This document shows positions 9,258-21,479 of a DNA stretch of 21,791 bases, piece after piece. Each line of letters begins with the position of its first letter. The first letter of the stretch is position 1. The notes under the pieces are model-generated. The model worked only from the letters and a program-made list of their open reading frames with translations. It did not search any database and was not told the origin of the DNA. The stretch is from a virus. The DNA is taken from the IMG/VR virus record IMGVR_UViG_3300017737_000098, positions 1-21,791 of that record, one strand, 5' to 3'. A program made the translations under genes and the position numbers.

Positions 9258-10024
9258 GCCGCTAACGCCTTCTTTAGTTCTTCTTTTTCAGCAGGTGTAA
9301 GTGCATCCAACTGTTTTTGTACATCTGCAGGAATTGCTGCTGCTGCACCCGGTGCTTGTGCTGCTGGTTCTGCAGATGCACCAGCAGATGCTGCTTTGTC
9401 TATGCTTTGCACTGCTTTTTTATCAACTGCAAATACGGCGCTACCCTTTTTTAGTTGTATTTGTTCATCGCCTTGTGCATCTTTTGTATCTAACATAGCA
9501 TTTACCACTGCTTGCTTCTTTTCGCCTTTGGCATTGGTGTATGTAACAGTGTCACCCACTTTAGGATCAACTGCTGGGCGATCACCACTTGCTACACCAC
9601 TTGCTGTTGGTTCATTGGGTTTGGGCTGTGCGCCTGCTGCAGCATCAGCGGTTGTGCCTGCACCTTTTTCGCCTCTGTTGACAGTTTTAAAAATTGTTTC
9701 TTGATACTTGGCCTTGATTGCACCTGAGATATAATCATCCAGTGCTTTGGCATCATCTGGATTGCCAGCAAATGCTGGTTCATTATTTTTTGGATCTGCA
9801 AAGTCTACAACCTTATTTACTGTGTCTGTGATCAGTGCTGGTGCATCTTTGGCATATGCTTGCGGATCGCGAGTTTTTAGTTGCGCCATTGCTTTTGTAA
9901 CATCACCTTTAACACCTTTGAGTACTGCAGGAAGTTGTTTTAGTTTTTCTTCATACTCTTGGTTGAGTTTTTCTGTTGCAGCATCAACTGGATCTGCTTC
10001 TAAAATTATCTGTGAAACTTTCAT
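9254..10024 (-). CDS. Head-region protein with capsid-targeting leader and duplicated SH3-like domain
   Basis: This 256-aa protein starts MKVSQIILEADPVDAATEK with ILE|A at residues 7-10, a near-perfect short version of the T4 internal-protein leader. Residues 15-115 are helical and charged. Residues 120-150 form a Pro/Ala/Gly linker, and residues 156-210 form the domain shared with the next gene. An Ala-rich linker and a C-terminal helix (LTPAEKEELKKALAA) follow. A TTAGG/GAAAG ribosome site precedes the ATG, and four bases overlap the upstream gene (ATGA). The layout of leader, helix, linker and small barrel suggests a processed internal or assembly protein. No enzyme motif is visible. Confidence 0.8.
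   Translation of the reverse strand: MKVSQIILEADPVDAATEKLNQEYEEKLKQLPAVLKGVKGDVTKAMAQLKTRDPQAYAKDAPALITDTVNKVVDFADPKNNEPAFAGNPDDAKALDDYISGAIKAKYQETIFKTVNRGEKGAGTTADAAAGAQPKPNEPTASGVASGDRPAVDPKVGDTVTYTNAKGEKKQAVVNAMLDTKDAQGDEQIQLKKGSAVFAVDKKAVQSIDKAASAGASAEPAAQAPGAAAAIPADVQKQLDALTPAEKEELKKALAA
9395..9559 (-). repeat. Duplicated 55-residue domain, copy 2
   Basis: This stretch codes for residues 156-210 of the 256-aa protein, from VGDTVTYTNAKGEKKQAVVN to QSIDK, and matches copy 1 at 47 of 55 residues. Seven of the eight differences are at charged or polar surface-type positions, as expected for a folded domain retained in two proteins of the same complex. Confidence 0.85.
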
Positions 10025-10269
10025 TTACTTTCGCCTAACTTAGCAACGCCACGTTTAAATTTTTTGGTGTCGCGTCCTCGGATGCTGTTGATCAAACGTC
10101 TTTCGAGATCGCCAGCAACCTCCTCATTATGGTGTTCATAAAATTCATCAATCAAGTTAATAGCACTTTCAATAATTTGACTACCGCGCGACTCAAACAC
10201 ATGCTGTCTATCACGTTCATGAATCATGCTGTTGAGTTCTGTTAATATGCTGCGAGTTTGTCTTTTCAT
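10021..10269 (-). CDS. Small conserved phage protein, 82 aa
   Basis: The protein reads MKRQTRSILTELNSMIHERD, then VFESRGSQIIESAINLIDEFYEHH, split here as residues 24-47, and ends LINSIRGRDTKKFKRGVAKLGESK, residues 59-82. It is all-helical with a basic tail. I recall proteins of this size and pattern (RSI..ELN, R...II.SAINL, NSI...D..KF.RG) in marine T4-like phages as uncharacterised. It is the first gene of the long minus-strand operon running to 5527 and has a late-promoter-like GATAAATA about 22 bases upstream. Its stop overlaps the next start (ATGA). Confidence 0.8.
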   Translation of the reverse strand: MKRQTRSILTELNSMIHERDRQHVFESRGSQIIESAINLIDEFYEHHNEEVAGDLERRLINSIRGRDTKKFKRGVAKLGESK

Positions 10270-11168: not shown

Positions 11169-12866
11169 ATGAAGTTACCAAACGATGCAGAGGCACAACT
11201 AAATCGATTACTAGGCGCATTTATAAGGCAAATACCAGAGGCACCAGAATATCGAAATAGACTAGTAGAAGAATGTGAGATTATTCTCCGACTTCGCTTT
11301 GTCGATTACTTCCTAACAATTTGCAATGTACTGACGCTAACCGCGGACATTCCCCATATGACCAGAGGTTCAGCAGGGTCAAGTCTTGTGTGTTACCTTT
11401 TAGGTATCACTGATGTAGATCCCATAAGATGGCAAATACCGGTTGCACGTTTCCTAAATCCTTTGAGGGATGATTTGCCAGATGTGGACATAGACTTTCC
11501 GCATTGGCAACAGGATACTGTGATGCAAAGAGTATTTGCGAAATGGCCTGGTCGCAGTGCAAGAATCAGTAACTATGTGCTATACAAGGAGCGCAGTGCT
11601 CGCAGAGAAGCAGCACGCCGTCTTGGCGCATCTGGCAAACTCCCTCGCAATTTTAAGTATGAAGATTATGACATCGATAAGGAAGAGGCAATGAGACTCG
11701 AAAAGAAACTATTAGGCAAAAAAAGATCAATAAGCAAACACTGTGGTGGCATTGTGATATTAAAGCACAAACTACCAAAAAGTCTAATCAACCAAGACAA
11801 TCAGTTGATGCTGGACAAAAGAGAAGTAGAAGATTTAGAACACTTAAAAATAGACATATTGGCCAACAGAGGACTATCACAACTGTTGGAAATAGACAGC
11901 GACACACCACTGGAAGCATATCCAGAACAAGATTTTGAAACATCACAACTGCTGTGCAGAGGTGATGTGTTGGGCGTAACGCAGGCTGAGTCCCCGGCCA
12001 TGCGACGCCTGTTCCAAGCAATACAACCACAATCAAAAAGTGACTGTGTGTTTGCCACAGCACTGATACGCCCTGTGGCCACAACAGGCAGACAAAAGGC
12101 AGCATTTTTCCAAGACTGGACAGAGCAGGCACTGGAAGATACCATAGTGTATGAGGATGATGCCATACGCAAGATAGCAAACTTGATTGGTTGTGACATG
12201 TATGAAGCAGATATGTATCGTCGTGCATTTGCAAAGCGTGACGAAGAACGTGTGATGGAGTTTATGGGGAGAATGGGAGAGTGTGAGGACAAAGAGCAGA
12301 TTATCCAAGAACTGTATGGTTTGGGTAACTTTGGATTGTGTAGAGCACATGCTGTGAATCTTGGAAGGCTGATTTGGGCATTAGCATATCAAAAAGCACA
12401 CAATCCAAAGCAGTTCTGGCGTGCAGCACTCAAACACTGTGTGGGATCATACAGACGTTGGGTACACAAAACAGAAGCAAAGAATGTGGGCTGGGATCTG
12501 CGTGACTTGGGTTATGAGAATGGCATTGTCAGCACACCACAAGCACAGTATCGCAAACATGGTTATTGGACACAGCCTGAATTTATGCCTGGCATGTTCA
12601 TACAAGAAACATGGGGTGATAGAGTAAACTTTGCAGGACTCATAGCCAATGGTAGAACATTCCGCGGCGAAAGTGGACGCTATGTTACATTTGTTACTGC
12701 AGGCATTGCCAATGGTGAGTATGTGGACATCACTGTAAAACGTCCGTTTTCACACAAGGATCATGATGTTATTGTGGGCAGTGGTAAGATACGCATGAGC
12801 AATGGTGCACGTTACATTGAATGTTATGATGCACAAGGACATAGACTAGAGCGTTATCTTGACTAA
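11169..12866 (+). CDS. Compact C-family (DnaE-type) DNA polymerase without PHP domain
   Basis: This 565-aa protein matches the bacterial replicative polymerase III alpha core. RGSAGSSLVCYLLGITDVDP (66-85) followed by FLNPLRDDLPDVDIDF (95-110) is the palm signature, with D107 and D109 as catalytic acids. KHCGGIVI (190-197) follows, and HLKIDILANRGL (225-236) gives the third acid, D229. VTQAESPAMRRLFQAIQP (270-287) and LGNFGLCRAHAVNLGRLIW (385-403) are finger-domain motifs. A short OB-fold-like part (FAGLIANGRTFRGESGRYVTF, about 488-508) ends it. The N-terminal PHP domain is missing, the clamp-binding region is reduced, and no proofreading exonuclease is present. E. coli DnaE is about 1160 aa. 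Replicates phage DNA, most likely with the helicase and primase here. Confidence 0.9.
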   Translation: MKLPNDAEAQLNRLLGAFIRQIPEAPEYRNRLVEECEIILRLRFVDYFLTICNVLTLTADIPHMTRGSAGSSLVCYLLGITDVDPIRWQIPVARFLNPLRDDLPDVDIDFPHWQQDTVMQRVFAKWPGRSARISNYVLYKERSARREAARRLGASGKLPRNFKYEDYDIDKEEAMRLEKKLLGKKRSISKHCGGIVILKHKLPKSLINQDNQLMLDKREVEDLEHLKIDILANRGLSQLLEIDSDTPLEAYPEQDFETSQLLCRGDVLGVTQAESPAMRRLFQAIQPQSKSDCVFATALIRPVATTGRQKAAFFQDWTEQALEDTIVYEDDAIRKIANLIGCDMYEADMYRRAFAKRDEERVMEFMGRMGECEDKEQIIQELYGLGNFGLCRAHAVNLGRLIWALAYQKAHNPKQFWRAALKHCVGSYRRWVHKTEAKNVGWDLRDLGYENGIVSTPQAQYRKHGYWTQPEFMPGMFIQETWGDRVNFAGLIANGRTFRGESGRYVTFVTAGIANGEYVDITVKRPFSHKDHDVIVGSGKIRMSNGARYIECYDAQGHRLERYLD

Positions 12867-13429
12867 GTCCATGTAGCGTGTAAACTGTATCTGTTGAAGT
12901 TTGCTGGTACTACACCATTTAACCAGTGAGGGACACCCACAGTATTGTCTGCAATGTATCCACTGCCAGGATTTGTATCTGTTGTGTGTATGCCATTGTG
13001 TTCAAACACTGTGCTGAGATTAGATAGGTTGTTGATATAGATTTGTATGCTGGCATTGAACGCAGGATTATCAGTGTGACGTTTTATATAGTAACCCTCA
13101 GTGTCTTTCCACAAATCTAAACCATTAAATTTTAAATGTTTGTTGAATACGTTTTCCAATTGTGGTGTAACATTTTGTAACACGCTGTGTGCTACCTCAA
13201 CCACTGTGTCTTGTTCCCAGGTTATTTTTTCCCTACATTCAATTTCTTCTTGCACAAGATTGTAAGCCAATTGCCATCCATGTGATGTTTGACAATATTC
13301 AAGCAATTTATCCAGCAGTGCTTGATCAAAAAAACCAGTCACCAGTTGTACACCATCAATACTGTGTATGTGTTTTAAAACTGCCAGTGTGTGCTGTGTG
13401 CTGATTTTGATTTGTTGTATATCTAACAT
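12863..13429 (-). CDS. 2-oxoglutarate/Fe(II) dioxygenase-like protein
   Basis: In this 188-aa protein, YYIKRHTDNPAFNASIQIYI (113-132) contains the HxD iron motif (H118, D120). VPHWLNGVVPANFNRYSLHA (166-185) contains the distal histidine H168 and an R-x-S pair (R180, S182) of the kind that binds 2-oxoglutarate. Spacing and the double-stranded helix pattern fit prolyl-4-hydroxylase-like oxygenases, which are common in marine phages. Substrate is unknown: protein, nucleic acid or small molecule. It is the last gene of the minus-strand operon. Its start overlaps the amidinotransferase stop by 7 bases, and its stop overlaps the polymerase stop tail to tail. Confidence 0.8.
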   Translation of the reverse strand: MLDIQQIKISTQHTLAVLKHIHSIDGVQLVTGFFDQALLDKLLEYCQTSHGWQLAYNLVQEEIECREKITWEQDTVVEVAHSVLQNVTPQLENVFNKHLKFNGLDLWKDTEGYYIKRHTDNPAFNASIQIYINNLSNLSTVFEHNGIHTTDTNPGSGYIADNTVGVPHWLNGVVPANFNRYSLHATWT

Positions 13430-14388
13430 GCTCTATCCATATCACTGGTAACACAGTGTATACCTCCATCCCAAAACAACTGATTGCGAAGTGGTACCAC
13501 TGTGACACTGATATTGAATGTTTCTAATATTTTGATTAACTCAGGATTTTCAACACTCATTATTACATTGTACTTGTCAACTATCAACATATTTACATCT
13601 ATAAAAGTTTCACTGACATGTCCAATCCAGTGCGTGATGTTTTCTTCTACAAAATTTTCAAACTCAACACTGTTGATATATTCAGGCAACCAATATTTTT
13701 CTATATGCGGATGTGCTGTGCCTTTTCTGTGTGGAATAGGTATACTGTTGCATCCAGGAACACCATCAGTCCAGTCTGGTCTGTGCAGCACTGTGTTACA
13801 GTTTATTTGACACAGTACACCATCTAGATGTCCTTGTGTGTCGAGCAAGTGTACAGTTTTATTTGGAAATGTTTTTTGTAGAACATCAACAGTGGCACTG
13901 TTATCATCACCATCTGTCCAGTTTCCCACCAGTAGTGTATCACCGCAGCGATGTACCATAGCACTGTCTATTATGATGCCATTGGTGTTGTAATGCACAG
14001 TGTTTCCGTGTTTGTGCATCAGTTGCTCAATTGGTTTTAACCATGTATAGTCATACTGTGCCATTTCTTCTTCTCTCACTGCTTCAGGCATGAACCATAC
14101 ACTGTCAATCATGGCAGTGTAATCTCGTGGAGTAAGAGGTGCTGGTAACATTTTATCACCCATTGTCACATCACTGAAAGCACTACTGATGTTGGGTTGA
14201 TGTGTTTCAACACCAAAACTTTCTAGCACATTGCACAAGTTTTCTAAATCTTCAAGTGTTTGCTCACTGATTGTTTGTAATGTTTTTCTAACTGTTGTGC
14301 TTTGTACAAAGTCATACAACTTGGGATCATAAGTGGTACCAACCAAACAAACTTGTAGTGGATCCCAATGATGTTCTACTCTAAGCAT
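13423..14388 (-). CDS. Amidinotransferase / guanidine-modifying enzyme family protein
   Basis: This 321-aa protein has the layout of glycine amidinotransferase and dimethylarginine hydrolase enzymes: MLPAPLTPRDY (80-90), GHLDGVLCQIN (186-196) with the catalytic histidine H187 and D189, and the C-terminal FWDGGIHCVTSDM (305-317) with the nucleophile Cys312. These enzymes act through a covalent amidino-cysteine intermediate and either transfer the group from arginine to an amine or hydrolyse it. There is no signal peptide, so it acts in the cytoplasm. It lies between an aminotransferase-like and a 2OG oxygenase gene and overlaps both, suggesting one pathway. Transferase against hydrolase cannot be decided by eye. 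Confidence 0.85.
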   Translation of the reverse strand: MLRVEHHWDPLQVCLVGTTYDPKLYDFVQSTTVRKTLQTISEQTLEDLENLCNVLESFGVETHQPNISSAFSDVTMGDKMLPAPLTPRDYTAMIDSVWFMPEAVREEEMAQYDYTWLKPIEQLMHKHGNTVHYNTNGIIIDSAMVHRCGDTLLVGNWTDGDDNSATVDVLQKTFPNKTVHLLDTQGHLDGVLCQINCNTVLHRPDWTDGVPGCNSIPIPHRKGTAHPHIEKYWLPEYINSVEFENFVEENITHWIGHVSETFIDVNMLIVDKYNVIMSVENPELIKILETFNISVTVVPLRNQLFWDGGIHCVTSDMDRAC

Positions 14389-15199
14389 GTTTAATCAGCA
14401 ATGGCGTGATACACTGCAATCCATTGTTGCTAGGATTTACACAATGTGCAAACTTGGTTTGCGTCAATTGAAGTTGTTTGCAAATGTCATTGTTCAACAG
14501 ACCATAGGTGTTCCACACATAGTCTCTGTCTAAATTTTGCATGTGATACACACCACAACTGAATATATTGGTGTTGATATCTTGTTTGTAATAATGATTG
14601 AGAATGGTGATGCTATCCATTGTGCGTTGTCTACTCCAACGCAATCCAACTCTATTCCAGTTTAATCCTAGTTTGCTCATTGAAATGCCAAAACTTTTGA
14701 TACAGGGATGGGATAGATCTATTTCAATATCTCTGGCAACCATTAACCATGCAAAGTCCAAGTGCAAATCTATGTTTTTTGTTTCCGCAATACACAGTAG
14801 ATCTGCCCATTCATCTCGTACATCACCTGTAAAAAAATCTGGAATGGTGATGATAATTGGTTTGTTTGGTTCTAACAGTTCTAGTTCAACACCATGTTTG
14901 CCCATCAGTTTATAATAAGCATATTCTCTGTTGAGTATTTGAAATCCATCCCAGCCATACTTTAATATAAAACTTTCTATGTAGTGTGTATTGCCTTGTG
15001 TAACATCTACATATGGAAAATGTTCAATGCCATGCAATTGTACCAATTTACTGTCAACAAACCAATGCTGTGCAATACTGACATAATCATTCCAGGTGTG
15101 TATGGTCTGTGGTTGTTTGTACCACTGATTTTGAAGTTCAAGTATTCGACTGTCGTTGACTGTGTTAATTTTGTCTGTAACTAGATTTTTATCGTACAT
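14381..15199 (-). CDS. Short fold-type I PLP aminotransferase-like protein
   Basis: This 272-aa protein contains the main landmarks of class I/II aminotransferases in order: VTQGNTHYIESFILKYGWDG (66-85) for the phosphate-side glycine helix, IPDFFTG (119-125) for the P-x-x-P-TG loop, IDLHLDFAWL (143-152) with D148 for the pyridine nitrogen, and KSFGISMSKLGLNWNRVGLR (168-187) with candidate Schiff-base lysine K176. Usual enzymes are 350-420 aa; the N-terminal arm and the C-terminal small domain are largely absent here. It may be a minimal enzyme, a partner subunit or a decayed one. It overlaps the amidinotransferase gene by 8 bases, suggesting amine formation before guanidino transfer. Motif-based; not confirmed by alignment. 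Confidence 0.7.
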   Translation of the reverse strand: MYDKNLVTDKINTVNDSRILELQNQWYKQPQTIHTWNDYVSIAQHWFVDSKLVQLHGIEHFPYVDVTQGNTHYIESFILKYGWDGFQILNREYAYYKLMGKHGVELELLEPNKPIIITIPDFFTGDVRDEWADLLCIAETKNIDLHLDFAWLMVARDIEIDLSHPCIKSFGISMSKLGLNWNRVGLRWSRQRTMDSITILNHYYKQDINTNIFSCGVYHMQNLDRDYVWNTYGLLNNDICKQLQLTQTKFAHCVNPSNNGLQCITPLLIKHA

Positions 15200-15593
15200 G
15201 ATTCATCACACATTCATAAAAAGGACTGGTAAATGGCAACTGCCATTCGCAGTTGTGTCCAAGAAATGTTTCTCCCACCACACGTTGCTCAAGTTCAATT
15301 CCTTGAGCACGTTGTTCACTTGCCCAAGGTTCAGGATATTGCGGAATGCACACACTGTCAGTCCACAGCATATCGCGAAGGTCAATGCCATCAATTGTGA
15401 TGCTGTTTATAATTACATGCTGATTGGGTGTGCTGTTGGTTTTTCCACTGTGTACAATGGTTAACACATGATTGCCAAAGTCAAGTGTGTGTGAAAATTT
15501 TATGCCTTTCATCTCCGCATCATCTATGTACACTGCAATTTTGGCATCACCTGATATCGCTAAATTGATATCAAACTCAATTGTTTCATTCAC
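15189..15593 (-). CDS. Small beta-sandwich-like protein A
   Basis: This 134-aa protein starts at a GTG that overlaps the helicase stop region. Alternating hydrophobic strands (IEFDINLAISGDAKIAVYID, NHVLTIVHSGKT, HVIINSITIDGIDLRDMLW) suggest a jelly-roll or carbohydrate-binding-like fold. The tail is a distinctive NCEWQLPFTSPFYECVMNHV. No catalytic motif is visible. Its pattern is similar to the gene at 17032-17412 (GNHVLTIVHSGK against GQSIEFMMFGKD, and ITIDGIDL against LQYITLENL), so the two may be distant paralogues on either side of the helicase gene. I recall such small proteins in marine phages but no function. Substrate-presenting or binding partner is speculation. Confidence 0.75.
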   Translation of the reverse strand: MNETIEFDINLAISGDAKIAVYIDDAEMKGIKFSHTLDFGNHVLTIVHSGKTNSTPNQHVIINSITIDGIDLRDMLWTDSVCIPQYPEPWASEQRAQGIELEQRVVGETFLGHNCEWQLPFTSPFYECVMNHVR

Positions 15594-16983
15594 TCTTTAA
15601 TCCTGCCAACATGTTTTTGAGTTTGCTGCTCTGCACACTGGCTGTGATTTTGCCCACATCTTCATCATCTGCAGTGACAGTACCGCTGCCTTCTTTTGAC
15701 TTGATCTGTTCATATATACTGCTGCTCTGTTTCTTAAACTGTTGATACTCTTGATCTTCGCCCAAGTCTCGGATGCGCAAACTTTCAACATCAAACTCCA
15801 AGTCAATCTTTTGACCAACACCACTACTACTTCTAGTTTTCATCAACTGTATCTGATAGCGTCCACGCTCACGCATTGCACGACTTGTAAAGATACCAAA
15901 CACATTGTCTGCTGTGTTGATCTTACTGATACCACCAGATATCATACTGTGATCAAATTCAATTTCTTCAACAGCACTACGATTCAACTGACTTGCTGTT
16001 ACAAACACACAGTTGAGTTCTTTGGCCAAGTTGCGCAGTTCTTCACTCACATACTTGTCTTTAACAAACAAATCATTTGGACTTACCTTTGCACTCACTG
16101 GCATGATCAAATCCAAATAGTCTATCAGCAAGAAATCAATCTGCCAACCGTTTTTGATCTGTAGTTCTTTCAAGTATGCACGAATATCATTTACATTGCT
16201 TTGTGCTGGCATGTATTTGATTTGCAAGTTGCCTGCTTTCTTGCCCACCATTTTTACTTTCATTTCAACAGTGTCAAGATCTTTAAACACCTCTTTAGTG
16301 CTGACATTTGTCATCATGCTGTCGATGCGCATTGCACTCAAGCCTTCACTGAGTTCAAGTGTGAGATACACACCATTGAGTCCTGCTGTGGCCCAGTTCA
16401 CAGCCAAGTTCTGCATGAACAAACTCTTACCTGACCCTGATCCACCTGCAAATATGTTGAGTTCGCCTTTGTTCATGCCACCAAACAGTTTACGATCCAT
16501 AGCAGGCCAGCCTGTGCTGATCTGTCCGTTGTTGTCTTTGAGAGCCATAAGTCTGCCTCTTGGATCTTCAAAGTAGTCTGTGCCCATGTCTTTTGTGAGA
16601 CTGATTTGCACAGCATCCTTGATGATCTTTTCAACTGGATCATATTCGCCTTTCTCCAACAAGTCTGCACTTTTGAGAATGGCACGTTCTAGTTCTTGCC
16701 GCTTGGTGAATCCTTCAAACTCTGCTAAGAACCAATCGTTGTGACTTTCAGTGATGTCTGGCACTGGCTTTAGATCTACACCTGTCACAGCCTGCACTTG
16801 TTCGCGTGTGGGCAGTGTGCCATGATCCTTGCTGTGAGTGTCGACGAACTGTGCAGTGTCTCGCAAACTTCTGTCAAAGTTGTCCACATTGAAAATGTTC
16901 TGCACCCGCACAAAGTTTTGTGCATCATTCAGCATCATTTCCAAAAATAGTTTTTGTAAGTCTGGTGTGTATTCTTTACTCAT
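15586..16983 (-). CDS. Replicative DNA helicase, DnaB/T4 gp41 family
   Basis: This 465-aa protein is close to the length of T4 gp41 (about 475). The N-terminal 130 residues form the helical primase-interacting domain. The RecA-like domain carries Walker A FAGGSGSGKSLFM (178-190), Walker B IDFLLIDYLDL (282-292) and the sensor strand VFVTASQLNRSA (326-337). QLMKTRSSSGVG (379-390) holds the DnaB-type loop with K382 and R384. It unwinds the phage fork 5' to 3' as a hexamer using NTP, together with the primase at 18769. The C-terminal 50 residues are acidic and flexible. An unexplained 48-base gap separates it from the gene upstream, with no convincing promoter. Confidence 0.93.
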   Translation of the reverse strand: MSKEYTPDLQKLFLEMMLNDAQNFVRVQNIFNVDNFDRSLRDTAQFVDTHSKDHGTLPTREQVQAVTGVDLKPVPDITESHNDWFLAEFEGFTKRQELERAILKSADLLEKGEYDPVEKIIKDAVQISLTKDMGTDYFEDPRGRLMALKDNNGQISTGWPAMDRKLFGGMNKGELNIFAGGSGSGKSLFMQNLAVNWATAGLNGVYLTLELSEGLSAMRIDSMMTNVSTKEVFKDLDTVEMKVKMVGKKAGNLQIKYMPAQSNVNDIRAYLKELQIKNGWQIDFLLIDYLDLIMPVSAKVSPNDLFVKDKYVSEELRNLAKELNCVFVTASQLNRSAVEEIEFDHSMISGGISKINTADNVFGIFTSRAMRERGRYQIQLMKTRSSSGVGQKIDLEFDVESLRIRDLGEDQEYQQFKKQSSSIYEQIKSKEGSGTVTADDEDVGKITASVQSSKLKNMLAGLKSE

Positions 16984-17031
16984 AGTGTTATTTTAAACTC
17001 TTTCTGTAAATATCGCAAGTAAAATTTTGCA

Positions 17032-17412
17032 TCAACACGCTACTTGTATGTACCATATGGGAAAATCTTTTTTATCAGGCAAGTGTATGTATCTTTTTTC
17101 TCTATCAAATCCAAAGTAAGGATCAAAAATACTATTGTGAAAATGCAAATTTTCTAATGTAATGTATTGTAATCTCAACTGCACTATCCTAACGTGCTTG
17201 TCATGCTGTATATGCCCTTGTTCTATTGTGGTATCTCTTTCATTGTCTTTGCCAAACATCATAAATTCTATACTTTGACCATAATTGTATTCAAATTCAA
17301 AAGTATGTTTTCCTTCCGCAAGTGTATTGGGTTTGATGCACAGGCTATTGATCACAAAACCAGCAGTGCCATTGCATTCTCCAAAGTATAGGTCAACACA
17401 CGCCTTAGGCAT
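17032..17412 (-). CDS. Small beta-sandwich-like protein B
   Basis: This 126-aa protein starts MPKACVDLYFGECNGTAGFV, overlapping the radical SAM stop by 8 bases. Strand-like segments (HTFEFEYNYGQSIEFMMFGK, HVRIVQLRLQYITLENLHFH) alternate hydrophobic and polar residues, suggesting a beta sandwich. The end is aromatic (FDPYFGFDREKRYIHLP, then FPIWYIQVAC). It resembles protein A at 15189-15593 in strand pattern and length, but identity is low and the link is tentative. No catalytic motif or signal peptide is seen. Its tight coupling to the radical SAM gene suggests it works with that enzyme, perhaps binding a carbohydrate or peptide substrate; this is inference. Confidence 0.75.
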   Translation of the reverse strand: MPKACVDLYFGECNGTAGFVINSLCIKPNTLAEGKHTFEFEYNYGQSIEFMMFGKDNERDTTIEQGHIQHDKHVRIVQLRLQYITLENLHFHNSIFDPYFGFDREKRYIHLPDKKDFPIWYIQVAC

Positions 17413-18775
17413 ATTGCTGTTCTTCTAAATTATGAATCAGTGTTTGTTGTTCTTCATTTTTAGGAACAACATATCCCAAACTGACACAATGATCAATCAG
17501 TTCTCTTCGCCATTGCAATCTTTGATCCAGTGTGCTCAACCCAATCCAATCGTTTTCACGCTTGCCAAGAGTGACTCCAAGTTCTTGACTCATTTTTTCC
17601 AATGGTGTGCCAGGAAGGATGGCCAGTGTTGTTCCAATGGCAATGCCAGTTATGGTGTTGGGTGCATACTTGCTTAATCGTTCATACATGATCTTATTTT
17701 CTTGTATTGTGCTTTCATCATCTGTGATATATCCCACAATCATGAGAAAGGTTCCTGTGATTCCATATTTTTGCATGCAGTGTACGCCATAAATTATATC
17801 TTCATTGCTAAACTTCTTTTGCATATGATCTCTCACACTTTCACTGAGATTTTCTATGCCAATTGCCACATGTGTTAGCCCAGCATCAGCACTCAGTTTC
17901 CATGTCTCTTCTGACATTTGATTTTTTGGCCTAAAGATAAATTGCCCTTCCCAAGTGATTTTATTTTTTGCAGTACAATTATATTCTGCCAGTGCAGCGC
18001 ACATTTCTTTGTAGGCTTTCATACTGCCGTTGATTAAACTGTCTGTAAACAAAAAATGATAAAGATTGTGTTTTTGACTTTGTAACATCATTTCATTTGC
18101 AATACTTTTGCCACTTCTAAAAACAAACTTTTTCCAATGCACATGTATATCACAAAATGTGCAACGTCTTACACATCCTCTGCTGCCTGTGATAGGTATT
18201 TGTTTATGGTACAAACTCAAGTCGTAACTGCTGTAGTCAGGTATTGGAAATTCATCTAGATTTTCAATTTGCGTCCATTCTTTTTTATCGTCGTGGTCAC
18301 CTCTTACTATGTCTACAATAGGCCACTCGCCTTCACTCACCACCCAATGATCACATAATTCTTGGTCTTTCCATTGTTCTCCAAGATTTTTTCCTTGCAA
18401 TCCTCCAGTGTTTAATCCAGGACCGCCCAGTATTATTTTGGTGTTGGGACTCATTGTTCTAATGTATACACACAACAGTTTGGTCATTCTTTGACATTGA
18501 TAACTAAAAATGCTCAATCCAATGTATTTAGGTTCAAATGAAAGCATTTTGCGCACATGCATTTGTATTGTAGCATCAAATTCCGACGCATCCTCAGGAG
18601 TTGTTTCAGCAATTGCATATCTTTTAAAATTTTCATCATCTTTGACATAGTGATTAAAATCATAAAATTTACCTGTGTGTCCGTGTTGTTGTAGCATGCT
18701 GATTAGTATCGCTGGAGCGGCTGGCGCAGTGTTTGTAAAAGTCACAGGCACACTAACAAACAATACATCTACCAT
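17405..18775 (-). CDS. Radical SAM enzyme, B12-binding-type architecture
   Basis: In this 456-aa protein, GSRGCVRRCTFCDIH (197-211) holds the CxxxCxxC motif (C201, C205, C208) that binds the 4Fe-4S cluster and S-adenosylmethionine. The N-terminal 180 residues look like the Rossmann-type cobalamin-binding domain usual in such enzymes (LFVSVPV, APAAPAILISMLQQHGHTG, IGLSIF, KIILGGPG). The DxHxxG cobalamin-ligating motif is not present, so cobalamin may bind weakly or not at all. Later segments (FTDSLINGS, VAIGIENLSESVRDHM, GTFLMIVGY) fit the radical SAM barrel. It overlaps primase upstream and the beta protein downstream. Methylation or another radical modification is likely; the substrate is unknown. 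Confidence 0.88.
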   Translation of the reverse strand: MVDVLFVSVPVTFTNTAPAAPAILISMLQQHGHTGKFYDFNHYVKDDENFKRYAIAETTPEDASEFDATIQMHVRKMLSFEPKYIGLSIFSYQCQRMTKLLCVYIRTMSPNTKIILGGPGLNTGGLQGKNLGEQWKDQELCDHWVVSEGEWPIVDIVRGDHDDKKEWTQIENLDEFPIPDYSSYDLSLYHKQIPITGSRGCVRRCTFCDIHVHWKKFVFRSGKSIANEMMLQSQKHNLYHFLFTDSLINGSMKAYKEMCAALAEYNCTAKNKITWEGQFIFRPKNQMSEETWKLSADAGLTHVAIGIENLSESVRDHMQKKFSNEDIIYGVHCMQKYGITGTFLMIVGYITDDESTIQENKIMYERLSKYAPNTITGIAIGTTLAILPGTPLEKMSQELGVTLGKRENDWIGLSTLDQRLQWRRELIDHCVSLGYVVPKNEEQQTLIHNLEEQQYA

Positions 18776-19731
18776 TTTTTTCTCATCAGATTAATTTTTA
18801 AACTGGTTGTTTGCTTTGCATCAACAATACTCTTAAGTGCGAACAGTTTTCCATAACGCACAACTGCATCATTGACATCTTTTACATCTGTTTCCCACTC
18901 AGGAAAACTAACACTCCATCCATACTCCAGTGCATCATCGATGAGCCGTTGTCCTGCACTGTCTCTGTCTGGTACCAGTATTACTTCTCTGCCCAGTGTG
19001 TCAATGATCTGTGCCTGTTGCTCACTGCACTGATTGCTCATTATGGCCACACCGCTGATGCACATTGCATCCAGTAATCCTTCTGCAACTACTACAAACC
19101 TAGCATCAGGCAACTGATTATCAATCCCATAAACGTAGCCACTATCATGATTAGTAAAGTATTTGGGTCTTCCGGCATTGTCTGTACTCCTTGCACTAAA
19201 ACCTATCACTTCGTTGTTCCAAGTAAAAGGCACAATTATACGTTTCCACATGCCTGCTGGTTTGCTGTTGCTCCACAATAATTTTTCCAACGGTAAACAC
19301 CTGTTCTCAGCATACTGTTGTATGTGTTTGGGTGCATCATCAAGTGTAACAACTCCGTCTGGCAATGGTCTTGGTTTGAACTCTACAACAATAGCATCTT
19401 CATCAGGTGTGAGAAGTTCAACTGTTTCTTTGATGCGCAGTGCTTCAATGTTGAGCATCTGTCGTGTGTTCTCATCTACACCCAACCATGTTAGTATTTT
19501 GCGCAACTTGAAACTGATGTGTCTGCCCGGTTGCCATCCTGTTTTGAATCCACAGTTAAAGCAGTGATAACTCACAGCATCGCCATTCATTATCACACCA
19601 CCTCTGCCGCGTTTGTCAACGGATTCACCATTGTGATGACAGCAAACAGCATTGAATGAAATCCATCCACCACTGCTTTGTTTGCGTTTACCAGGCAACG
19701 CATCAAACACACTTTGTTGTATACTGTTCAT
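18769..19731 (-). CDS. DNA primase, DnaG/T4 gp61-like
   Basis: This 320-aa primase has an N-terminal zinc ribbon (C30, H33 from AVCCHHNGES, and C57, C60 from SYHCFNCGF). The Toprim catalytic core carries VVVAEGLLDAM (213-223) with Glu217 and ILVPDRDSAGQ (251-261) with Asp255 and Asp257. TDVKDVNDAV (281-290) is a further conserved segment. The length is similar to T4 gp61 (about 340 aa) and shorter than bacterial DnaG. It makes RNA primers for lagging-strand synthesis and should pair with the gp41-like helicase in the same operon. Its start overlaps the SGNH gene stop (ATGA) and its stop overlaps the radical SAM start. Confidence 0.93.
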   Translation of the reverse strand: MNSIQQSVFDALPGKRKQSSGGWISFNAVCCHHNGESVDKRGRGGVIMNGDAVSYHCFNCGFKTGWQPGRHISFKLRKILTWLGVDENTRQMLNIEALRIKETVELLTPDEDAIVVEFKPRPLPDGVVTLDDAPKHIQQYAENRCLPLEKLLWSNSKPAGMWKRIIVPFTWNNEVIGFSARSTDNAGRPKYFTNHDSGYVYGIDNQLPDARFVVVAEGLLDAMCISGVAIMSNQCSEQQAQIIDTLGREVILVPDRDSAGQRLIDDALEYGWSVSFPEWETDVKDVNDAVVRYGKLFALKSIVDAKQTTSLKINLMRKKW

Positions 19732-20288
19732 GTGTGTATTATAGCATCTAATTGTGTTTTGATCAACTGAAAAATACGCTCATGCCCAGCATCATTTGGA
19801 TGCAAGTGATCAGCAATGTACTTTTGTCTATCCGGCATCAGCACATCTATCATGTGTGGCACACAATGCACATGCATGTATCTTAGGCCTTGTAGATTGC
19901 AAGCATTTTCAACAATTGACTTGGGATACCAATCATGTACATCTTCAATGTATGCACTGAGTTGATTGCTTACATAATCTACAACACTGTGTGTCAGCGC
20001 ACTGCCGCGTTTCTTTTGCTGTATGTAATTGAGATGTTCCCAACGTGCAGTGTGAGTGTTGTACCAACTGTTGCGATTGGGATGACTCCATCCAAACAGC
20101 ACCACATCATCTGTTTGTATTTGATGTTGTGTTTCACAAAAGTGTAGTGCTATCCATGGATTGCTGGCACTGCTGTCACTGTGTTGCACAAAGTCATAAC
20201 CATAGTGGTCAGCGGCAATACGTCCATAACAGGTCTTGGCTTCTTCTCCTAGACTGACACTACAACCATATTGATGTATTGCGGGCAT
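19728..20288 (-). CDS. SGNH/GDSL-hydrolase-like protein, 186 aa
   Basis: YGCSVSLGEE (7-16) supplies the block I serine S10. DSSASNPWIA (38-47) holds a candidate Asn43 (block III type). IADHLHPNDAGHERI near the C-terminus contains a D-x-x-H pair (D then H in DHLH) as in block V. This fits SGNH esterase/acetylhydrolase folds, which are about 180-230 aa. No signal peptide is present, so it is probably cytoplasmic. It follows a second SGNH-like gene through a one-base TAATG overlap and precedes primase. The substrate could be a sugar O-acetyl or another ester; this is not visible from sequence. Confidence 0.75.
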   Translation of the reverse strand: MPAIHQYGCSVSLGEEAKTCYGRIAADHYGYDFVQHSDSSASNPWIALHFCETQHQIQTDDVVLFGWSHPNRNSWYNTHTARWEHLNYIQQKKRGSALTHSVVDYVSNQLSAYIEDVHDWYPKSIVENACNLQGLRYMHVHCVPHMIDVLMPDRQKYIADHLHPNDAGHERIFQLIKTQLDAIIHT

Positions 20289-20962
20289 TAGAATCTATCC
20301 ACGCAGTATCCATCATACCAGTGTTCATCTGCTGTCCATCTACCATTGCGCACTCGTTTGTCTATGGCAGCAAACTGTAATCTTGTTTGTCCATCAACTG
20401 GCAGTTCTGGCAATACCTCATCCAAATAGTCTATGTGTTGTTGAGGAGTAGGATGATAGTCGCTGTCAAATGCAGCATTGTGCCAATCACCTTTGTATAT
20501 CACAGTGTGTACACTGGGTTTTATTGAGCCAAGTACACCATAAGTTTGTAGTATGATATCGCACTGACTCTTTACTTGTGTATCGCTTGTGTCTAAATCA
20601 ATCATACTGAGAAAATAATACTCACAAGTTGTGCTGTTCAATGCCATTTGTGCTGCTTGTATGTTTGCACAATCTCTGATGATACTGCCTTTGACATCGA
20701 CCAGTTGTGCTCCGACTGTTTGCCAACCATCCTCATAATGATCTTGTCTGTCACAACTTGTCCACATCACTATGACTGTGTCATTGTGGTTTATATCATG
20801 TCTGGCATGTGCTTCTGCAATGCTCCACAATATAAAACTATTACCTGCACCGCCCTCTGCAAAGTTGTAGTGCTGATCAAATTGAGGTGCTAGGGCATCA
20901 GCCCAGGTAGGCCACTTATAGCGTGTGAAACTACAACCAAATGTAAACAATCTTTTTTGCAT
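20288..20962 (-). CDS. SGNH/GDSL-hydrolase-like protein, 224 aa
   Basis: I place the start at the ATG at 20962 (MQKRLFTFGCSFTRYKWPTW) rather than the TTG at 20980, because family members start close to the first strand. No strong ribosome site is seen for either. GCS (S11) is block I. AEGGAGNSFILW (35-46) gives glycine/Asn41 of blocks II-III. VIVMWTS (64-70) is a core strand, and DSDYHPTPQQHIDYL holds the terminal Asp/His pair in D-x-H spacing. I recall similar proteins in marine phages. It is the first gene of the replication operon after the terminator at 20987. An esterase or acyl-transferring role on cell-surface or sugar substrates is likely. Confidence 0.78.
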   Translation of the reverse strand: MQKRLFTFGCSFTRYKWPTWADALAPQFDQHYNFAEGGAGNSFILWSIAEAHARHDINHNDTVIVMWTSCDRQDHYEDGWQTVGAQLVDVKGSIIRDCANIQAAQMALNSTTCEYYFLSMIDLDTSDTQVKSQCDIILQTYGVLGSIKPSVHTVIYKGDWHNAAFDSDYHPTPQQHIDYLDEVLPELPVDGQTRLQFAAIDKRVRNGRWTADEHWYDGYCVDRF

Positions 20963-20986
20963 ACTATTAGTTATGCTCAAAAAATA

Positions 20987-21056: not shown

Positions 21057-21479
21057 TTATAGTTTCTCAAGTAATTTTTTAAGTTTCTTTTTGCTTTTGC
21101 CCAGTGCTTTTGCTTTGGCAACAACATCTTTGTTGCTGGTATCATCACCAACAACCACAAGTCCAATCATGCCCATGCCTTTGTGTGGTGTACACCAATA
21201 GTAGTACACACCTGGTATATCAAATGTGATTGCAACTTCTTTGCCGTTCTTTGACTTTTTCGGAATATCAAAGCCTTCTGGTGCTGCAACAATTTCTACA
21301 TTGTGACCTTTACTGGTTGGTACCCACGTGATGGTATCACCTGCTGCAACTCTTGCAATCTCTTGTGAGTATACCATTTTGTTGCCATCAGCATCTTTGT
21401 TCAACATTTCAATTGTGGTTGCATTTGCAGTTGTGGCAGCAAACAGCATTGTGATTGCTATTGTTAGATTTTTGAACAT
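21057..21479 (-). CDS. Pseudoazurin (blue copper protein), exported
   Basis: This 140-aa protein has a signal peptide (MFKNLTIAITMLFAATTANA, cleaved after about residue 20). The mature part is a cupredoxin with type 1 copper ligands H59 (SKGHNVE), C96, H99 and M104 (YYYWCTPHKGMGM). The Cys-x2-His-x4-Met spacing and the C-terminal Lys-rich helices (VAKAKALGKSKKKLKKLLEKL) match pseudoazurins rather than plastocyanins. It would carry single electrons in the periplasm, classically to nitrite or nitrous-oxide reductase or cytochrome peroxidase. AGGGA precedes the ATG by about 8 bases, and a terminator follows. As a phage gene it is an auxiliary metabolic gene. Host origin is likely, but I see no sharp composition change. 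Confidence 0.93.
   Translation of the reverse strand: MFKNLTIAITMLFAATTANATTIEMLNKDADGNKMVYSQEIARVAAGDTITWVPTSKGHNVEIVAAPEGFDIPKKSKNGKEVAITFDIPGVYYYWCTPHKGMGMIGLVVVGDDTSNKDVVAKAKALGKSKKKLKKLLEKL

Follow-up and report, generated by a model that had tools for sequence, protein, structure and literature searches.

A recurrent beta2–PLP–amidinotransferase–2OG gene cassette in uncultured phages, with a possible role in guanidinylation

Do the enzyme genes interspersed with the replication genes of an uncultured marine phage belong together, and what might they make? We investigated this in IMG/VR record IMGVR_UViG_3300017737_000098, the complete virus contig of 21,791 bases that is called the window below. 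An earlier note, made from the sequence alone, had proposed that a radical S-adenosylmethionine (SAM) enzyme, two small beta proteins (beta1 and beta2), a pyridoxal-phosphate (PLP) enzyme, an amidinotransferase and a 2-oxoglutarate (2OG)-Fe(II) oxygenase form one pathway. Every gene it named was present at the positions it gave, with catalytic residues intact. The unit that travels together, which is well supported, comprises beta2, the PLP gene, the amidinotransferase and the 2OG gene (15593 to 12863). This cassette is probably a real pathway, because the combination of its four genes turns up again in dozens of uncultured phages of diverse kinds, and it has so far been found in viral contigs only.

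Co-conservation of the cassette

Searches seeded with the PLP protein alone gave 30 viral contigs at first and 111 later, of which 80 were kept for analysis. The 93 long PLP copies formed 43 clusters at 90% identity, and partners were counted in the 33 clusters with at least 1.5 kb of left flank and at least 2.5 kb of right flank. Within 3.5 kb of the PLP gene, beta2 was present in 29/33 clusters, the 2OG gene in 25/33, DnaB in 23/33 and the amidinotransferase in 20/33. Because the contigs were picked by PLP alone, these partner counts were not built in, and the neighbourhood check bore out the claim that PLP, amidinotransferase and 2OG enzymes are conserved together as a cassette. According to the earlier note, finding single genes in unrelated settings, apart from the rest, would speak against one cassette. 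Such occurrence was found for the amidinotransferase, partly for beta2, and not for the PLP gene, which was nearly always accompanied by at least one partner.

The cassette was found directly after DnaB, after a PolIII-like gene (loci L004 and L008), beside a terminase gene (L071 and L073) and in further contexts (L079, L090, L091, L096, L099-L101 and L074). At three loci (L020, L050 and L062), it lay on the opposite strand beside DnaB, in permuted order and with the 2OG gene on the other strand. Embedding in a replisome operon is therefore true for the window but is one of several locations. The minimum number of presence changes on the PLP tree was 2 for beta2, 6 for the 2OG gene, 7 for the amidinotransferase and 8 for any radical SAM gene. 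On the amidinotransferase tree the cassette copies did not form one clade; the cassette label changed 4 times (shuffled mean, 24), with at least 3 changes forced by well-supported branches and some of the joins being long branches. This scatter suggests repeated pairing of different amidinotransferase lineages with the same PLP family. In our reading, a core of beta2 and PLP has time and again taken up, lost or exchanged its amidinotransferase and 2OG partners.

The radical SAM enzyme of the window had been seen as the first step of the same pathway, and the two beta proteins as one unit. Neither proposal was supported. Beta1 goes with the radical SAM gene and beta2 with the PLP gene. The nearest NCBIfam models of the window enzyme were of the B12-binding/BchE-HpnJ-PhpK type, all below their curated cut-offs. 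Its own search found three other contigs only, plus a distant match in L065/L066, and tblastn found none in GenBank phages. Two of the three contigs (61% identical) again had the gene paired with beta1 between primase and DnaB, and the radical SAM–beta1 pair was found in L269, L270 and L228. Radical SAM genes of the window type lay within 6 kb of the PLP gene in 1/33 clusters; the window enzyme was rejected as a core member because such orthologues are rare, and beta1 was rejected because it travels with the radical SAM gene. Radical SAM genes of any type were found within about 6 kb of the PLP gene in 15/33 flanked clusters. Two types other than that of the window recur near the PLP gene: one, weakly similar to SPASM proteins, was seen in 10 clusters, frequently in the primase–DnaB gap, and the other, a twitch-domain type, in 6. 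These nearby types may contribute to the pathway, though exchangeable, and our favoured reading of the radical SAM–beta1 pair is a separate, exchangeable accessory.

Predicted activities of the four proteins

Gene identities, catalytic-residue conservation, the recurrent association of the genes and the predicted beta2 fold are what the computation shows. Profile libraries gave confident names for DnaB, primase and the radical SAM enzyme, and no confident family for the PLP, 2OG, beta1 and beta2 proteins of the window. The model of the PLP protein had a predicted local distance difference test score (pLDDT) of 74.6 and was weak at about residues 178-206. Foldseek matched it to fold-type-I PLP enzymes with E values down to 2.5e-6 and a probability of 1.00, and VIA aligned it with PLP enzymes at a Z of ~14 and a root-mean-square deviation of ~4 Å over ~255 residues. 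Six residues (G69, T71, H146, D148, S173 and K176) were invariant in 43/43 cluster representatives. Based on motif, we propose that H146-x-D148 and K176 are the cofactor residues, with K176 as the Schiff-base lysine and D148, 28 residues apart from it, as the pyridine-binding aspartate. Judged by its predicted structure, the protein is a minimal (272 aa) fold-type-I PLP enzyme.

The earlier note had used the label "PLP-aminotransferase-like", but aminotransferase identity is not established because the Pfam matches of the family are weak and to Pyridoxal_deC (group II decarboxylase). They occurred in 4/17 aligned members, and a further scan gave more (best E 0.0013, listed scores below cut-off); no member gave an aminotransferase Pfam match or anything above the Pfam gathering cut-off. 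The family had no convincing PHROG match, and its profile produced spurious matches only against PDB sequences. Relatives were found neither among 84,980 prokaryote genomes scanned by pattern nor by tblastn in ~50,700 GenBank phage records.

The amidinotransferase profile matched human AGAT (8.8e-30, spanning both halves), StrB1 (4.2e-29), SxtG (2.5e-27) and HsvA (4.4e-26) in the PDB, and in the profile libraries the window protein matched a phage family of unknown function only (phrog_25854, 2.2e-9). Residues C312, H187, D189 and D89 align with AGAT Cys407, His303, Asp305 and Asp170 and were invariant in 24/24 cassette copies; the roles of these residues in AGAT are established, Cys407 and His303 being catalytic, and Asp254 belongs to the catalytic triad. 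Membership of the AGAT/StrB1 family is supported, with amidino transfer from arginine to an amine predicted, and the catalytic residues also support the chemistry class of the cassette. The family is larger than the cassette. It was present in at least 591 viral contigs, and among genomes in four contigs of metagenome-assembled genomes only, without PLP. Away from the PLP gene it recurs in other modules, for example in one where two small unknown genes and a DUF6614 gene flank it, in one with an epimerase and a short DegT/StrS gene alongside, and next to UDP-glucose dehydrogenase.

Two small observations concern phages that carry this family. A 213-aa PolIII-like mini-protein (L226, 4949-5590, +, and five other loci; phrog_11778, DNA polymerase) has its gene close to primase and DnaB in other phages with an amidinotransferase. 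A 524-aa protein (gene n33; L176, 754-2328, +) has a DSGGFQ motif reminiscent of TGT/DpdA and no family match; genes for an amidinotransferase, an epimerase and GTP cyclohydrolase I share its loci.

The putative 2OG-Fe(II) oxygenase-like protein was recognized by motif. H118, D120, H168 and R180, matching the HxD...H facial triad and the arginine for 2-oxoglutarate, were invariant in 31/31 cluster-representative homologues. The protein had no Pfam match, and its profile gave spurious matches only against PDB sequences, none to a 2OG enzyme.

The AlphaFold model of beta2 had a pLDDT of 93.6, and VIA-align placed it closest to the CBM60-type chains 2xhh and 2xfd (Z 10.3 and 10.2; next row, 5.6). 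Plain Foldseek listed no CBM60 among its first 50 rows, the beta2 sequence profile had no match in the PDB, tblastn found no beta2 in GenBank phages, and neither beta protein had a family match by sequence. On this model, beta2 is CBM60/CBM36-like in fold and may bind carbohydrate. It resembles the calcium-dependent CBM60/CBM36 modules (Z ~10) in predicted fold, whereas it is a stand-alone phage protein with no CBM60 Pfam match. The family has a strongly conserved C-terminal motif, W...FTSPFY. Comparison of the beta1 and beta2 profiles with hhalign (probability 94.2, E 1.2e-7) identifies beta1 as a remote homologue of beta2. Elsewhere, beta2 was found as a 383-aa open reading frame (ORF) (L086, 348-1499) and as two tandem copies (L089, 1263-2241), suggesting duplication of the beta2 unit. 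In loci L140-L157 the beta2 family occurs in the absence of PLP, within another conserved phage context and frequently close to a twitch-type radical SAM gene.

Candidate substrates

Our favoured reading, held tentatively and at somewhat less than an even chance, is that the four genes guanidinylate an amine on an aminosugar or other glycan bound by beta2. The CBM60-like beta2 would hold the carbohydrate or similar substrate, on which the minimal PLP enzyme would make or expose a primary amine. The amidinotransferase would then move the amidino group of arginine to this amine via its Cys-His active site, yielding a guanidino group and ornithine, and the 2OG-Fe(II) oxygenase would hydroxylate the substrate or the product. 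The likeliest target would be an aminosugar-bearing glycan on the virion or host surface. The order of steps, the shared substrate, its carbohydrate nature, the product and the site of action are what we infer here, and the carbohydrate target is a reasoned guess.

Carbohydrate amines are favoured as acceptors mainly because of the context of amidinotransferase paralogues, by analogy. Besides the cassette, contig G001 (315 kb) encodes two more amidinotransferases. One of these lies downstream of UDP-glucose dehydrogenase (PDB match 6.9e-17) and a 2OG-like gene; the other is clustered with a dTDP-glucose-dehydratase-like gene, four twitch-type radical SAM genes and a StrS/DegT aminotransferase whose best PDB match is glutamine:scyllo-inositol transaminase (1.6e-44). 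In contig G004 the cassette lacks a local amidinotransferase, and a copy linked to UDP-glucose dehydrogenase is found elsewhere in the contig. Synechococcus phage S-SCSM2R has its amidinotransferase among glycosyltransferases, and the predicted fold of beta2 is a further hint of carbohydrate.

The closest known chemistry is streptomycin-type guanidinylation (StrS/StsC with StrB1), which also joins a PLP enzyme to an arginine-dependent amidinotransferase; the StrB1 profile match (4e-29) and the phage paralogues beside StrS/DegT-like aminotransferases are in line with it. In contrast, the cassette PLP enzyme has 272 aa and no DegT match, the cassette lacks genes for cyclitols or sugar nucleotides, and a 2OG oxygenase and a CBM-like protein come in addition. 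Campylobacter phages CP220 and CPt10, as described in passages of one paper, have interchangeable clusters in which a putative glycine amidinotransferase accompanies five radical SAM genes (PMC2853527). They are alike in having a phage-borne AGAT-like enzyme in an exchangeable cluster with radical SAM genes, but those passages, on which the comparison is based, name no PLP/CBM60-like/2OG core. A karst-lake virus study lists K00613, an amidinotransferase gene in phages (PMC8226683). A limited literature search found no paper on the beta2–PLP–amidinotransferase–2OG set.

Several results weigh against a carbohydrate pathway run by these four genes. The paralogue context is an analogy and no evidence on the window's own copy. 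The cassette itself contains no glycosyltransferase or sugar-nucleotide gene, and a search of 14 contigs for the GT2 family gave sub-cut-off matches only. The CBM60 Pfam model PF16841 had no match over its cut-off in the window and 11 other contigs encoding beta2-family proteins. The only pointers to the type of PLP enzyme are weak decarboxylase-like Pfam matches, and the position of AGAT Asp254 (D141 in the window) is variable in 10/24 copies, although the alignment there may be shifted. Finally, the four-gene set is not obligate, because the 2OG gene is missing nearby in 8/33 clusters and the amidinotransferase in 13/33.

Modification of DNA, as with the guanidino nucleotide offered by the earlier note, is a quite unlikely alternative. 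A 2OG enzyme, a radical SAM enzyme or both would oxidise a base, the PLP enzyme would install or unmask an amine, and the amidinotransferase would make a guanidino base shielding phage DNA. The cassette is often beside DnaB and primase, phage DNA is known to be modified by pathways that use PLP and radical SAM enzymes, and GTP cyclohydrolase genes occur in some PLP-carrying contigs. Like thymidine- or 7-deazaguanine-type hypermodification, the cassette has multi-enzyme tailoring genes near replication genes, but the diagnostic families were not found in PLP-carrying contigs of 49-316 kb, mostly fragments. The thymidylate-synthase family PF00303 (dUMP/dCMP hydroxymethylase) was present in 0/14 contigs, including those of 315 and 209 kb, with the control positive in 9 genomes; the TGT family PF01702 was present in 0/17, although a divergent DpdA may escape the model. 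A search for ADDT gave no match and was uninformative, since its control matched nowhere either. Several cassettes are away from replication genes, and a CBM60-like beta2 has no obvious DNA role. Canonical thymidylate-synthase-based or 7-deazaguanine modification is not supported, and beyond gene location DNA modification has no positive support.

A free guanidino metabolite, for example a guanidinoacetate/creatine-like one or a defence inhibitor, could be formed if a host amino acid were decarboxylated or transaminated by the PLP enzyme, given an amidino group and hydroxylated. By profile, AGAT and StrB1 are equally close, several PLP members have weak Pyridoxal_deC matches, and an ocean survey discussed the creatine pathway and reported enrichment of its gene GAMT in viruses (PMC11360552). 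We consider this unlikely, as it leaves the near-constant beta2 partner (29/33) unexplained. Each beta gene adjoins its enzyme gene (beta1 the radical SAM, beta2 the PLP gene), which fits beta1 and beta2 as themselves the substrates or carriers of the radical SAM, PLP and amidinotransferase enzymes. The beta2 motif and the Twitch/SPASM-type radical SAM genes nearby fit too, but folding explains the conserved residues equally well and several loci have PLP without beta2 (L093, L099-L101), making protein or peptide modification improbable. That there is no shared pathway, and independent accessory genes gathered at insertion hot spots beside conserved phage genes, would suit the primase–DnaB gap, which houses a wide range of genes, SGNH and three types of radical SAM among them, and the amidinotransferases in modules without PLP. 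This is very unlikely, given that the partners reappear across unrelated contexts and in changed order and that different amidinotransferase lineages stand beside the same PLP family.

The window and the meaning of the cassette

Neighbouring ORFs from primase to the 2OG gene overlap by 7-11 bp (Table 1). The genes are co-directional, as the earlier note stated, but not all overlapping, since a gap of 48 bp separates beta1 and DnaB. At its stop, the 2OG gene shares 4 bp with the convergent PolIII-alpha-like ORF. The match of this ORF is confined to the central polymerase part of the model (~309-768 of 1047 aa), without the N-terminal PHP part, and its relatives occur near the cassette in several phages. 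The window DnaB shares ~50% identity with its counterparts in jumbo myoviruses, PA5oct among them. Homologues of the 82-aa protein were found near the cassette in 26 PLP clusters, and relatives of the two small proteins upstream of primase were again upstream of primase in other loci.

Table 1. Features of the window, with the evidence or role assigned to each
Feature	Coordinates	Strand	Evidence or remark
Pseudoazurin-like blue copper protein	21057-21479	-	Signal-peptide-like N-terminus; TIGR02375 108 bits, cut-off 109.85
Two adjoining small proteins	19728-20980	-	First with weak GDSL/SGNH-hydrolase similarity
DNA primase	18769-19731	-	phrog_47 8.7e-38; genomic context
Radical SAM enzyme, B12-binding subclass-like	17405-18775	-	Pfam 5.6e-14; accessory, lineage-specific
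beta1, small beta protein	17032-17412	-	Remote homologue of beta2, paired with radical SAM gene
DnaB-like replicative helicase	15586-16983	-	Pfam DnaB_C 8.7e-22, phrog_19 2.6e-70; context, outside module
beta2, 134-aa beta-sandwich	15189-15593	-	CBM60/CBM36-like predicted fold
PLP-like protein, 272 aa, fold-type-I enzyme	14381-15199	-	Predicted structure and invariant residues
Amidinotransferase, AGAT/StrB1 family	13423-14388	-	Profile against PDB and invariant residues
2OG-Fe(II) oxygenase-like protein	12863-13429	-	Motif H118-x-D120 ... H168 ... R180
PolIII-alpha-like ORF, 565 aa	11169-12866	+	Model match; convergent to 2OG gene
82-aa protein	10021-10269	-	Matches phrog_11854 (virion structural protein)

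A broader form of the guanidinylation reading is that viruses alone guanidinylate an amine of a macromolecule, either a virion or host glycan or DNA, with a minimal PLP enzyme guided by a CBM60-like partner. We regard this as rather unlikely, though if true the phage would gain a positively charged coat or genome decoration. To our knowledge, no such coat or genome decoration has been described in any virus. The cassette offers a four-gene unit in which viral guanidinylation chemistry can be tested, built around a PLP family that is widespread in environmental phage contigs yet has no above-threshold Pfam match and no match in the GenBank phages and prokaryote genomes scanned. It also suggests that some viral amidinotransferases now annotated under creatine or glycine metabolism may act in the tailoring of sugars or glycans instead.

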